From: Prochlorococcus sp. scB243_495L20
Lineage (GTDB): Bacteria > Cyanobacteriota > Cyanobacteriia > PCC-6307 > Cyanobiaceae
Assembly: GCA_000634215.1 (NCBI GenBank)
Contig: JFLX01000090.1
Span: 1 to 64,000 of the forward strand
DNA: 64,000 nucleotides
Reading direction: 5' to 3'
Shown: positions 29,476 through 35,150 of the stretch, in pieces
Numbering within the stretch: position 1 is the first letter of the stretch
Layout of the letters: each line of letters starts with the position of its first letter
The notes under the pieces: model-generated
What the model saw: only the letters and a program-made list of their open reading frames with translations
Told to the model about the DNA's origin: nothing
Databases searched by the model: none
Program-made: the position numbers and the translations under genes

Positions 29476-30060
29476 ATGAGCTTAAAAGTAGGCCAAGAAG
29501 CACCAAACTTTAGTGCTACCGCAGTATATGATCAAGAGTTTAAGGAGATTACACTTTCAGGTCTAAGAGGTAAATGGGTTGTTCTATTCTTTTACCCTCT
29601 AGATTTTACATTTGTATGTCCAACTGAAATCACAGCATTTAGTGATAGATACCAAGATTTCTCGGCACTTAATACGGAAATACTTGGTGTATCAGTTGAT
29701 AGCAAGCACTGTCATTTGGCTTGGATACAAACCCCAAGAAATGAAGGTGGTATAGGTGATATTAACTATCCGTTAGTTTCTGACTTAAAAAGAGAAATTT
29801 GCCAGGCTTACAATGTTCTAAATGATGATGGGGAGGCTGATAGAGGTTTATTTCTTATCAATCCCGAAGGAGTAGTTATGCATACGACTGTTAACAAGGC
29901 TCCTGTAGGTAGAAATGTTGATGAAACGCTAAGGATTCTTCAAGGCTATCAATACGTTGCGGCGAACCCCGATGAAGTGTGTCCAGCAAACTGGACCCCC
30001 GGGGAGAAAACAATGTTAGAGGACCCAAAAGGTAGTAAGGAATATTTTTCTGCGCTATAG
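29476..30060 (+). CDS. 2-Cys peroxiredoxin
   Basis: A typical 2-Cys peroxiredoxin (AhpC/Tsa family, 194 residues) that reduces hydrogen peroxide and alkyl hydroperoxides with electrons from thioredoxin. The peroxidatic cysteine is Cys 48 in [11 protein letters not shown]; the resolving cysteine is Cys 169 in [17 protein letters not shown] segment and a C-terminal EYF correspond to the GGLG and YF motifs of hyperoxidation-sensitive enzymes. It has its own promoter and ends near a strong hairpin (30130-30156). It is the first housekeeping gene to the right of the small-gene islet. ATG start. Confidence 0.95.
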
Positions 30061-30075
30061 GAGAATTAGAAACAT

Positions 30076-30828
30076 TTAAGTAAGTAATGAGTAGTAAATA
30101 CTTATAAAAAAATAAAAAATAAATATATTCAAAAAGGGGATAACATCCTCTTTTTGAGGTTTGTGTACAATCCAATCGCTCAAATTAGTTTTATATGATA
30201 AAAAGGACCACGTATAAAAAGAAATTTCTATTGCGACTAGGATAAAAAGATTAATTAAATTTAGGTCATTTAAACCAAAATATCTATAAATATGAAACTG
30301 ATCATCAACACTCATATTAATAATTTGAAGATGCCAAAGATAGAGAGAAATCAAAATAAAATTTACCAATATTATTTTTTTTAAAAGAAACCTAGATTTC
30401 TTAAAAATTAATAGGATAGAAATTAAAAATATGAAAAAACATAACTGTGGAATATCCGGATTTGGGACATTAATTCCTTCAAGAAATAGATTAATTATAA
30501 GATCAAAATTTATATATATATAATCAGCTATTAAGAAAGAGAGAAATATTAAATTTATTGCTACTAAGAATAATAATCTTTTTCCTTTAATTATTTTTTT
30601 ACTATGGATTTTATCCTTAATAAAACTATAATCTGTATAGTTATTTAAAGAGTTTATATACACCAAAGATGGACATATTGCTCCGCTCAAATAGTAAAGG
30701 ATTAAATAAAAGGAAATATCATTAATATTGAGTGAATACAAATTAAACCATTGTTTTTGTACAAATGGAAGAATAAGTAAAAATGAAAGTTTAACAAATA
30801 ACTTCGTTGTATTGTTTTTAATTATCAA
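30076..30828 (-). CDS. Cyanobacterial polytopic membrane protein of unknown function
   Basis: A 250-residue hydrophobic protein with about six or seven membrane helices, for example residues 10-24, 34-55, 88-108, 126-160 and 190-212. Loops contain NYTDYSFIKDKIHSKK and NVPNPDIPQ. I do not recognise a defined family. The last helix-like segment (DVIPFLNIFIFYFFISIYYS) is encoded across a bidirectional terminator hairpin at 30130-30156, so the C-terminus may be a read-through extension. It lies downstream of ftsH-like gene on the same strand, 32 bases away, and converges on the peroxiredoxin gene. Confidence 0.65.
   Translation of the reverse strand: MIIKNNTTKLFVKLSFLLILPFVQKQWFNLYSLNINDISFYLILYYLSGAICPSLVYINSLNNYTDYSFIKDKIHSKKIIKGKRLLFLVAINLIFLSFLIADYIYINFDLIINLFLEGINVPNPDIPQLCFFIFLISILLIFKKSRFLLKKIILVNFILISLYLWHLQIINMSVDDQFHIYRYFGLNDLNLINLFILVAIEISFYTWSFLSYKTNLSDWIVHKPQKEDVIPFLNIFIFYFFISIYYSLLT
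30130..30156. terminator. Bidirectional intrinsic terminator inside the end of a coding region
   Basis: A 12-base-pair stem with one G-U pair and a 3-base AAC loop: the arms run from C30130 and to G30156. The A5 run in the left arm and the T5 run in the right arm let it act as a terminator in both directions (GGGGAT/ATCCTC then TTTTT). It sits 70 bases after the peroxiredoxin stop and within the 3' end of the convergent membrane protein gene. Confidence 0.7.
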
Positions 30829-30860: not shown

Positions 30861-32615
30861 TCAAACTTTCAACAATTTTGAAGTTGTTAATTTAAAAACT
30901 TTTTTATCTATAGTTTCTTGATTTAAAAGTATATCAACTAATTTATCCAGTAAGACTCTATTTTTTTTCAATATTTTTATTGAATTATTTAATGAAATTT
31001 TAGAAATATTTATGATTTCATTATCTATTCTAGAACTGGTATTTTCTGCTATAAGAGGCTTTCTTCTAAATAATCCATCTCCTAAATACATTTCATTATT
31101 ATCAGAATCCATTGAAATTGGTCCAATAATTGAAAATCCATATTTTGTAACCATTTCCCTTACGATATTTGTCGCATAAGAGATATCGTTTATGGAGCAT
31201 TGTGTAATTTCACCTTCACCAAAAACTATCGTTTCTGCTGCTCTTCCAGCTAGAGCAATTTCAATTTTTGAAAATAATAATTTTTTTGAAATCAATCCAC
31301 TAGAAATTACATCTTCATCAGGGCATATTTTTGTATATCCTCCTATGGATCCAGATCTAGGTAAAATCGTAATTTTATCAACTGATTCAATTCCATTTCT
31401 CACAGCAGATACAATTGCTCTACCTACTTCGTTATAAGCAATAATTTTTTTCATATTAGGAGAAGTTATTAATGAGCTTCTCAGGCCAATGGTAATTTTA
31501 TCAAGAGCATTTTCTATATGAAGATCATTGATTAATTTAGATTCGTCTCTTGCACAGTGAATAGCACTCTCGTTCATCAAGTTTGCAAGATCTGCTCCCG
31601 AAAATCCGACTGTTCTAGAAGCCCAATATCCTAAGTCAACATCGCTTGAAAGTGGTTTGGAAAGAGAGTGAACTGAAAGAATTTTTTTTCTTCCATCTAA
31701 ATCTGGAAGCATTACTTCAATTTTCCTATCAAATCTACCTGGTCTTAATAATGCTGCATCCAAAATATCTGGTCTATTTGTTGCTGCTAAAACAATAATC
31801 CCAGAATTATCAGCAAAACCATCTAATTCAGTTAGAAGCTGATTAAGGGTTTGTTCTCTTTCATCATTTCCACCTCCGATCCCAGACCCTCTTTGCCTAC
31901 CAATGGAATCAATTTCATCAATAAAAATTATACAAGGAGATTTTTCCTTAGCCTTAGAGAACAGATCACGAACTCGGCTTGCTCCAACACCAACAAAAAG
32001 TTCTACAAACTCTGAAGCCGATATTGAGAGAAAAGGTACTCCTGATTCACCAGCAATTGCTTTAGCTAATAATGTTTTTCCTGTCCCTGGTGGGCCTATT
32101 AGGAGAACTCCCTTAGGAACTTTCGCTCCAAGATTTTCAAATTTCTTTGGTTCTTTCAAAAATGTTATTACCTCTTTTAATTCCTCTGCGGCTTCAGGGA
32201 CGCCAGCTACATCGTCGAATCTCGTTTCTACATCATCAATAGTTACAAATTTAGATTGATTTTTGGTAAAACCAAAAGCTCTGGAGGCCAATTTTGATGA
32301 ACTCCTCAAGATTAAGACTATAGCTAATATGAAAATTAGGAAAAGACTTATTGAAGCGAATGAATTAGCAGCTGAGGCTTCTTTTCTACTATTGTTAATA
32401 GTTAGATCTACCTTATTTTCAGTAGCCTTTTCAAGGATTAATTGATCGTTGTAAAGGATAGGTATTTTAAATTTATCTCCATTTTTATACAGAACATCAA
32501 TTTCTCTCTCCCTTGGATAGAAGAATATTGATTCTATTTTCCCCGTCTCTATATCTTCTAGAAGATCCGAATAACTTGATTTAGAATCTGAATATGAGAA
32601 TTTTGATCTAAACAC
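30861..32615 (-). CDS. FtsH-like AAA protein without protease motif (pseudoprotease)
   Basis: A 584-residue FtsH homologue. The AAA module is intact: Walker A GPPGTGKT at 174-181, Walker B IIFIDEID at 229-236, and the second region of homology [20 protein letters not shown] at 278-297. In the protease domain the zinc motif HExxH is replaced by NEVGR (residues 395-399), so both zinc histidines are lost, while the later [13 protein letters not shown] block and an Asp in the third-ligand region remain. Only one membrane helix (about 88-104) is present; the normal first helix is missing and an in-frame stop lies just before the GTG start. Similar inactive FtsHi proteins in chloroplasts form ATP-driven motor complexes. 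The likely role is unfolding or assembly without proteolysis, perhaps with active FtsH subunits (inference). Confidence 0.9.
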
Positions 32616-32746
32616 TAATCTTTATAAGTGATTAATAAAGCATATATGCTTATTTAAAAAATTGACGTATATAAACAAAATATACTCAAAAGTTTTGGAG
32701 ATAACCAGTTAAAGGTTATATTATTATATGGAAATAAAGAAACAGA

Positions 32747-32914
32747 ATGGCTGTACCAAAGAAGAAAAAATCAAAGAGCAAAAGGAACCAAAGGCACGCT
32801 GTTTGGAAAGGAAAAGCAGCAATAGCAGCTCAAAAAGCTATATCTTTAGGTAAATCAGTTTTAACTGGGAAAGCTCAAGGATTTGTTTATCCTATTGAGG
32901 AAGAAGAAGAGTAG
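32747..32914 (+). CDS. rpmF: 50S ribosomal protein L32
   Basis: A 55-residue basic large-subunit protein. [20 protein letters not shown] is the family N-terminus; the later [15 protein letters not shown] tail is acidic, as in cyanobacterial L32. ATG at 32747, TAG at 32912-32914. It is too short for most gene finders' cut-offs but unmistakable. It is divergent from the ftsH-like gene and converges on the Ycf20-like gene with 3 bases between stops. Confidence 0.95.
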
Positions 32915-34167: not shown

Positions 34168-34515
34168 ATGAAATCATGGACATGTATAGAAAATTGTGGA
34201 GCTTGTTGTAAATTCGACTTGAACGAAAGAAGCGATTTGGCTAACAAACTTAACAAAGAAGATATAGTTTTGATAAATTCGATGACGGCTAAAGACGGTT
34301 GGTGTAAAAACCTGGACAGAGAAAATAAAAAATGCTTAATTTATGAAACAAGACCACATTTTTGCCGTGTAAGTGAATTTTCAACTTCATTTAAAGGATA
34401 TTTTAAATCTGGTGATAAATTTTTGATAGATTGCTGCAAACAACATATTTCATCAAATTATGGATACCAAAGTAAAGAGATGAAATCTTTTAGAATTGCT
34501 GTTTCAGGAAAATGA
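34168..34515 (+). CDS. YkgJ-type cysteine cluster protein
   Basis: A 115-residue protein of the YkgJ/UPF0153 family with a Cys-rich metal-binding site: CIENCGACC at residues 6-14, then LDRENKKCLIYETRPHFCRV near 50-70, and CC near 91. Such proteins are thought to bind zinc or an iron-sulphur cluster. The function is unknown. Its stop overlaps the ATG of the next gene (ATGA at 34512-34515), coupling it to the UPF0016 transporter pair. This could mean a role in metal homeostasis (inference). Confidence 0.83.
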   Translation: MKSWTCIENCGACCKFDLNERSDLANKLNKEDIVLINSMTAKDGWCKNLDRENKKCLIYETRPHFCRVSEFSTSFKGYFKSGDKFLIDCCKQHISSNYGYQSKEMKSFRIAVSGK

Positions 34516-34838
34516 ATAGTAAATTAGACAAAAAAGAAAACAATCTAGAAAAAAGTTTTTTTTCAATATTTATAACAACTTTTACAACAATTTTTATTGC
34601 TGAACTTGGCGATAAAACTCAGATAGCAACATTAATGCTTTCTGCCGAATCGGGCAGGCCAATAGTTGTGTTTCTTGGAAGTTCTCTAGCATTAATAAGC
34701 TCTAGCATAGTAGGAGTTCTTATTGGTAAATGGGTATCAAAAAAAATATCTCCTAGCAAATTTGCTTTATCTACTGGTACTTTAATGATATTGATAAGTA
34801 TATTTTTAGCTTATGAAACCTTCAAAAAATATTTATAA
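34512..34838 (+). CDS. UPF0016 (GDT1/TMEM165) half-transporter, first of a pair
   Basis: A 108-residue membrane protein with one copy of the family motif, ELGDKTQ at 31-37, and three hydrophobic helices. Full-length UPF0016 proteins have two such halves in one chain; cyanobacterial members (Mnx/PAM71) export manganese from the cytosol into the thylakoid or periplasm. Here the two halves are separate tandem genes, so a heterodimer is expected. Start overlaps the YkgJ-type gene (ATGA) and the stop abuts the ATG of the second half. Confidence 0.88.
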   Translation: MNSKLDKKENNLEKSFFSIFITTFTTIFIAELGDKTQIATLMLSAESGRPIVVFLGSSLALISSSIVGVLIGKWVSKKISPSKFALSTGTLMILISIFLAYETFKKYL

Positions 34839-35150
34839 ATGGTTTTAAGTTTATTACTATCAACATTTCTAACCGTTTTCATAGCTGAATTAGGTGACAA
34901 AACTCAACTAGCTACTTTAACTATAAGCGGCACTTCAAATAAACCATTAGCAGTTTTTTTAGGATCTTCTTCAGCACTTGTTTTTGCAAGTTTACTAGGA
35001 GCTTTAACAGGTGGGTCTATTTCAGGTTTTTTACCCGAAGTAGTTCTTAAGTCAATAGCGTCCATTACATTTTTCATCATTGGTATAAGGCTTTTTATCA
35101 ACTCTTTCACCATCGAAAAAGAAGAAAAAGAAGAGAAAGAAAATAATTAG
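34839..35150 (+). CDS. UPF0016 (GDT1/TMEM165) half-transporter, second of a pair
   Basis: A 103-residue protein with ELGDKTQ at 17-23 and the same three-helix layout; the tail is a charged KEEKEEKENN. It begins immediately after the stop of the first half (no gap). The two halves align with each other (FIAELGDKTQ, then VFLGSS), showing descent from a duplicated unit. The expected function is manganese or calcium transport by the heteromer. Confidence 0.88.
   Translation: MVLSLLLSTFLTVFIAELGDKTQLATLTISGTSNKPLAVFLGSSSALVFASLLGALTGGSISGFLPEVVLKSIASITFFIIGIRLFINSFTIEKEEKEEKENN

Follow-up and report, generated by a model that had tools for sequence, protein, structure and literature searches.

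A Prochlorococcus FtsH1-type homologue with a complete AAA motor and a lost zinc site, encoded next to a truncated UPF0182 gene

The analysed window, a stretch of 64,000 nucleotides of Prochlorococcus sp. scB243_495L20 DNA (contig JFLX01000090.1), contains a gene for an FtsH homologue that, judged by its residues, is not an FtsH protease. The AAA module of FtsH, with the Walker A and Walker B motifs, the pore, and the arginine fingers, is present, and so is the M41 domain (PF01434; fold match of residues 129–579); however, the HExxH zinc site is replaced with NEVGR. This combination suggests that a former protease subunit has taken on a role in pulling or unfolding. The initial annotation had described an FtsH homologue with an intact motor and a lost protease motif; its residue numbers are exact, and the sequence confirms that NEVGR at residues 395–399 removes both zinc histidines. 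The features of the locus are as follows.

30861–32615, minus strand: pseudoprotease FtsH, assigned to the cyanobacterial FtsH1-type branch; 584 amino acids, GTG start
32376–32588, minus strand: FtsH_ext-like N-terminal domain, residues 10–80 (PF06480 at residues 14–72, E 7e-6)
32304–32354, minus strand: single predicted transmembrane helix, about residues 88–104 (hydropathy; helix 77–114 in the predicted model)
31491–32225, minus strand: AAA motor domain, residues 131–375 (Pfam, structural match, residue check)
32073–32096, minus strand: Walker A motif GPPGTGKT, residues 174–181 (residue check)
31908–31931, minus strand: Walker B motif IIFIDEID, residues 229–236 (residue check)
30894–31466, minus strand: M41 domain lacking the zinc site, residues 384–574 (Pfam, fold match)
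31419–31433, minus strand: NEVGR in the HExxH position, residues 395–399 (sequence)
31185–31187, minus strand: Asp477, retained, in the position of the usual third zinc ligand (alignment)
32747–32914, plus strand: divergent neighbour, presumably rpmF (ribosomal protein L32) from its protein sequence; marker of the orthologous place in other genomes
30076–30828, minus strand: co-directional hydrophobic open reading frame of 250 amino acids, TTG start; N-terminal stub of UPF0182 (locus comparison; hhalign 98.9%, E 2.9e-17)
29476–30060, plus strand: peroxiredoxin of the AhpC-TSA family; marks synteny on the opposite side (Pfam, synteny)

The Pfam scores of the window FtsH are 158.6 bits for AAA and 151.7 bits for Peptidase_M41, the cut-off of which is 29.9. 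Residues 291–297 form the arginine-finger motif RPGRFDR. The position aligned with Asp477 presumably provides the third zinc ligand in other FtsH proteins. The FtsH_ext-like domain would be located outside the cytoplasm. The protein scores 647 bits against the NCBIfam equivalog TIGR01241, above the cut-off of 600; therefore, model-based annotation would label it 'zinc metalloprotease', and the protease capacity of Prochlorococcus may be overestimated where FtsH proteins are counted in its proteomes. A comparison with the other FtsH genes of the genome, as proposed in the initial annotation, identified two, both with intact motifs (HEAGH and HEVGH). A promoter scan found fewer sites than shuffled sequences did (7 versus a mean of 17.8).

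The loss of the motif is shared by the whole genus of the window, which we take to include MED4, MIT9515, and MIT9215. A search of 101 genomes of the genus with an orthologue threshold of more than 900 bits identified the gene in 77, including 28 of the 29 that are at least 90% complete. The exception is G098 (97% complete), and the remaining 23 genomes without an orthologue are all less than 90% complete. The motif was read in 81 proteins of the genus, 77 from this search, a few of them contig-end fragments, and four from a family sample. All have the pattern N-E-x-G-R: NEVGR in 79, NEAGR in one, and NEGGR in one. None of these proteins carries HEVGH at this site. NEVGR is nearly fixed in the window's genus but not in all Prochlorococcus, since the sister genera carry other motifs.

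The sample of the family, taken as Cyanobiaceae, comprises 151 genomes, and the orthologue was read in 128 of them. The motif HE[IV]GH is present in 104 of the 128 and is broken in 24, six of which belong to the window's genus. The genome that we take to be MIT9313 has an intact HEIGH at this locus. Among the 23 family genomes in which no orthologue was read, some of them incomplete, five contain UPF0182 and 18 contain neither gene. One of them is G126, which is 99% complete and contains three M41 genes, none of the FtsH1-type class. Its absence from G098 and G126 indicates that the window-type gene may be dispensable.

The broken set of 99 proteins consists of the 81 from the window's genus and 18 from six sister genera, in which the FtsH frames are also full-length. 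The sister genera carry the motifs NEVGK, NEAGK, NEIGR, YEIGR, HEAGR, HEIGK, HQIGK, QIIGK, QQVGR, RNASK, and RESAR. The position of the second zinc histidine is occupied by arginine in 86 and by lysine in 13 of the 99 proteins, and by nothing else. The first histidine is retained in six, so that both are absent from 93. The glutamate of the motif (Glu396) is retained in 90 and the third-ligand aspartate in 86. The motor is nearly invariant: the lysine and threonine of Walker A, the aspartate and glutamate of Walker B, the sensor asparagine, both arginine-finger residues, and the phenylalanine and glycine of the pore are the same in all 99, and the tenth position, the pore valine, is valine in 96 and isoleucine in three. 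L162 (genome G103), with RNASK and an end branch of 2.7, is the broken FtsH that has diverged furthest in the tree, and its motor is complete.

In a tree calculated from all alignment columns with paralogues included (91 rows), the 22 broken rows form one clade with an SH-aLRT support of 98, and some of them lie on long branches. The clade is retained with a support of 96 when the columns of the motif and the third ligand are removed (51 rows). It is not recovered in a tree of the AAA domain alone; however, a single clade is not rejected by those data (AU p 0.40). The trees, which contain no plant sequence, place the loss of the protease within the family of the window, with an active FtsH protease as the starting point. 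On the simplest reading, a single destruction of the zinc site would have occurred in the common ancestor of the window's genus and the six sister genera.

Four classes of FtsH are resolved in the tree. The class of the window protein is sister to class B with a branch support of 100, and classes A and C are apart. This position, together with published accounts, is the basis for calling the class FtsH1-type; the class names were assigned from the class pattern and papers, with a tree that contains no Synechocystis sequence. So named, the window protein is a member of the cyanobacterial FtsH1-type branch, the sister of FtsH2. Passages of the published work describe FtsH1 and FtsH2 as products of a late cyanobacterial duplication in which FtsH1 evolved faster (PMC8047818), and equate the picocyanobacterial FtsH4, with reservation, with Synechocystis FtsH1 (PMC6300248). 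The orthologous position is marked by rpmF, which adjoins the FtsH1-type gene, divergently upstream, in all 40 family loci with long flanks. Outside the family, it adjoins the gene in L208 and was not seen near L040 or five other loci with short flanks.

FtsH usually has two N-terminal transmembrane helices, and the window protein has a single hydrophobic segment above the hydropathy threshold, around residues 85–105. As noted in the initial annotation, an in-frame stop precedes the GTG start: a TAA at 32624–32622, three codons upstream. A missed upstream start that would supply the first helix is ruled out by this stop, and also by L008 and L030, in which the frame is 29 codons longer and contains no second segment above the threshold. 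The first helix was not lost together with the protease motif. Among 43 orthologues from the family, a single segment above the same simple threshold was found in all 23 broken proteins and in 19 of the 20 active ones; in L161, the remaining active one, an open frame includes a hydrophobic stretch far upstream. This rules out the joint loss of the helix and the motif that had been implied by linking them, and indicates that the helix loss is older. Outside the family, the first segment passes the threshold in seven of 12 orthologues. The first segments of the other five appear signal-like by eye, and the threshold is therefore not very sensitive. By eye, the first segment ends in an A-x-A-like stretch in most of the 12, as would a cleavable signal. 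Provided that the ancestor carried this segment as a cleaved signal, its loss may have altered the mature topology little.

The gene is under strong purifying selection. For the 105 pairs from 15 close genomes, the dN/dS values are 0.029 for the AAA domain, 0.041 for the N-terminal domain, and 0.107 for the M41 domain; the corresponding values for a wider set of seven are 0.05, 0.094, and 0.131. Pairs of active orthologues, of which 66–69 were usable and which are more diverged with dS two to three times higher, have values of 0.032, 0.153, and 0.073. The M41 domain diverges 2.46 times faster than the AAA domain in the broken proteins, and 1.95 and 2.21 times faster in two sets of active ones. 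By these rates, the M41 domain is slightly relaxed yet still maintained. The predicted model of the window FtsH has a mean pLDDT of 77 and a pTM of 0.58. Residues 129–579 of the model match FtsH 3kds with a Z-score of 34.2 and an rmsd of 5.9 Å over 423 residues. The model also matches one chain in 8xku, a Ycf2-FtsHi motor, with a Z-score of 30.2.

Three further explanations of the broken motif can be weighed against these data. That the motif is a sequencing or assembly error, for which no point speaks beyond the fragmentation of the assembly into 143 contigs, is practically negligible, because the motif is repeated in 80 other genomes of the genus with only its third residue varying. A pseudogene decaying in a shrinking genome would fit the lost protease motif, the shortened partner gene, the long branches in some lineages, the slight relaxation of M41, and the dN/dS of 0.32 of the downstream stub. 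However, the dN/dS of the motor, 0.029 to 0.05, is close to the 0.032 of active orthologues, the gene occurs in nearly every well-completed genome of the genus, and its frame is full-length in six sister genera. The strength of purifying selection shows that the window FtsH is not a decaying gene, and this reading is highly improbable. It is similarly very unlikely that the protein is a residual or altered protease in which a metal is held by unusual ligands, at least in the forms resembling HEAGR or HEIGK. The retention of Glu396, the third-ligand aspartate, and in six proteins the first histidine, would be in keeping with such activity; however, the second histidine is replaced with arginine or lysine in every broken protein, and 93 of the 99 have neither histidine.

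The downstream neighbour had been described as a co-directional gene of an uncharacterised membrane protein. It is co-directional, but it can be identified as a truncated UPF0182. In the 11 active loci of the crown group with enough sequence (L180–L187 and L194–L196), the same position is occupied by a protein of 923–941 residues, and the two of these that were scanned both match UPF0182 (PF03699). The broken loci have an open reading frame of 249–277 residues at that position; the call in L008 begins at an internal start and gives 221 residues, and that in L006 breaks off at the locus boundary. The five broken loci of genus g56 have nothing there. Pfam found no family for the window frame and no PF03699 match for those of L163, L170, and L199. 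In a profile comparison with hhalign, 16 short frames align over 257 columns with the first ~270 residues of the long proteins at a probability of 98.9% (E 2.9e-17), versus 0.3% for one unrelated control profile with a membrane helix. The aligned part includes the S-D-W motif of UPF0182, and the C-terminal ~660 residues are missing from the stub. The dN/dS of the stub, 0.32 in 15 genomes that differ slightly from the FtsH set, indicates that it is only loosely constrained.

Genome-wide, PF03699 was detected in 95 of the 104 genomes with an active FtsH1 (five of the 95 matches are partial) and in none of the 24 in which FtsH1 is broken. Since all broken forms fall into a single clade, the co-distribution represents essentially one joint event, not 24. 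The nine active exceptions are three drafts of 62–78% completeness and six genomes of genus g9 (G108, G163, G190, G213, G232, and G248; 95–99% complete), which retain HExxH and have no UPF0182 match. UPF0182 can therefore be lost while the protease stays, which weakens its loss as the full cause of the protease loss. In basal loci such as those of G109 and G123, UPF0182 is located about 3 kb away, and in G162 it is far off. Among the papers found for UPF0182, no title points to a study of the protein itself, and COG1615 gave no matches in the literature.

The data are best accommodated, with a probability of roughly 0.6, by a model drawn from the Synechocystis system, in which the Prochlorococcus FtsH1-type subunit has become a motor without a cutting site that pairs with an active FtsH3-type subunit in a mixed hexamer. 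In Synechocystis, FtsH1 and FtsH3 are described as acting together in the plasma membrane, and the pair as essential, in the sections of PMC11287208 that deal with it. The FtsH3-type paralogue of the window genome carries HEAGH. The same holds for the genomes that we take to be MED4, SS120, and MIT9211. An FtsH3-type match, by score alone, was found in 30 of 32 genomes, with none in G245 and at most a fragment in G215. The partner reported for FtsH1 and the retention of FtsH3-type genes with HEAGH make the mixed hexamer the most suitable model. The ancestor would have been an active FtsH that already had one helix. The zinc site would then have been destroyed, with arginine or lysine placed at the second zinc histidine, while the complete ATP-driven threading motor and the folded M41 ring were kept. 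With its N-terminus outside and C-terminus inside, and one helix in the plasma membrane as in Synechocystis, the FtsH1-type subunit would contribute ATP hydrolysis, substrate choice, and unfolding, and the FtsH3-type seats would cut. The protease activity of the FtsH1 seat may have become dispensable at about the time when the adjacent UPF0182 lost its large C-terminal part, and the constant arginine or lysine may stand in for the charge of the zinc.

Alternatively, the protein may assemble into a hexamer of itself alone, or join other proteins in a complex, and function as a stand-alone membrane unfoldase or chaperone, like the FtsHi/Ycf2 motors, with no proteolytic partner. The pore motif and both arginine-finger residues, complete in all 99 proteins, would serve such a motor, and three FtsHi motor entries contain chains similar to the predicted model, with Z-scores of 26–30. 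The reported hetero-oligomers of the FtsH1 class with FtsH3 in Synechocystis (PMC11287208, in the sections concerned) and the retention of FtsH3-type genes speak against it, and this possibility is considered less likely. The sequence constraint on M41 fits either arrangement. A broader change is put forward only tentatively: in the ancestor of most Prochlorococcus, an FtsH1-type regulatory protease would have been converted into a permanent non-cutting motor subunit by a fixed positive charge, with arginine or lysine replacing the structural charge of zinc, and its operon neighbour UPF0182 would at once have been trimmed to the portion in the membrane, so that one membrane quality-control or regulatory pathway was rewired. 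Points against the favoured model are the AAA-only tree, the long branches of some broken rows, genus g9, and the absence of the gene from G098 and G126. A further point concerns the MED4 transcripts, in which, according to parts of PMC6300248, isoforms 1–3 are more evenly balanced; this suggests that the window-type isoform is weakly expressed.

The window protein shares the AAA-M41 layout of Synechocystis Slr1390 (FtsH1, the partner of FtsH3) and, judging from the class pattern of the tree, probably belongs to the same branch. It differs from the Slr1390 type in the absence of HExxH, in the arginine or lysine at the second zinc histidine, and in the absence of the N-terminal signal-like helix, which is also missing from active orthologues of the family. 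Syntenic active orthologues of the window gene occur in the same family. FtsHi proteins of plants and algae, as in the Ycf2-FtsH12-FtsHi motor, are likewise FtsH homologues with an intact motor and a lost zinc motif, and the window protein has the same combination. Unlike the plant motor, it is placed as a loss within its own family by trees without plant sequences, and a single broken gene was read per genome. The resemblance to FtsHi put forward in the initial annotation thus holds as an analogy but is not new. In the genome of locus L170, which we take to be SS120, the orthologous gene encodes NEAGK, and the three remaining FtsH proteins carry HExxH. Pseudoprotease FtsH in Prochlorococcus is already in print, since one FtsHi was listed for P. 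marinus SS120 in passages of two papers (Mishra 2019, PMC6460958; Mishra and Funk 2021, PMC8197885), and it is very likely the orthologue of the window protein. The 2019 paper covers one strain and, in its passages on FtsHi, gives neither the motif nor the origin nor the neighbours. In the literature covered by the search, which excludes most subscription papers and was represented in part, nothing was found on the extent of the loss, its single origin, the arginine or lysine rule, the FtsH1-type identity, or the UPF0182 stub in the broken lineages, which are the new points here.

Prochlorococcus is among the most abundant marine phototrophs and has shed many genes. A dead protease kept under strong selection in this organism provides a natural test of what FtsH does when it is only a motor, and of the reason for the reported essentiality of FtsH1 in Synechocystis. 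Active and dead versions that are close relatives occupy the same locus. The link to FtsH1 is a first lead to the role of UPF0182, a family without known function.

Only three M41 genes were found in the window genome (G000), the assembly of which is rated 99.96% complete. The class that was not found is the FtsH2-type (class B), perhaps located in a gap between the 143 contigs; FtsH2-type is the subunit of photosystem II repair. The window FtsH matches 28 phage records, 27 of them with less than 60% identity, and three cover at least 80% of the query. The record of the cyanophage MaAM05 of Microcystis includes an annotated ftsH; among the remaining 'phage' records listed with an FtsH, several are short, lack annotation, and may represent host DNA. 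Elsewhere in the window, at 34512–35150, two adjacent short membrane open reading frames resemble a split pair of transporters, presumably of the UPF0016 type, and their order is preserved in many loci of relatives.
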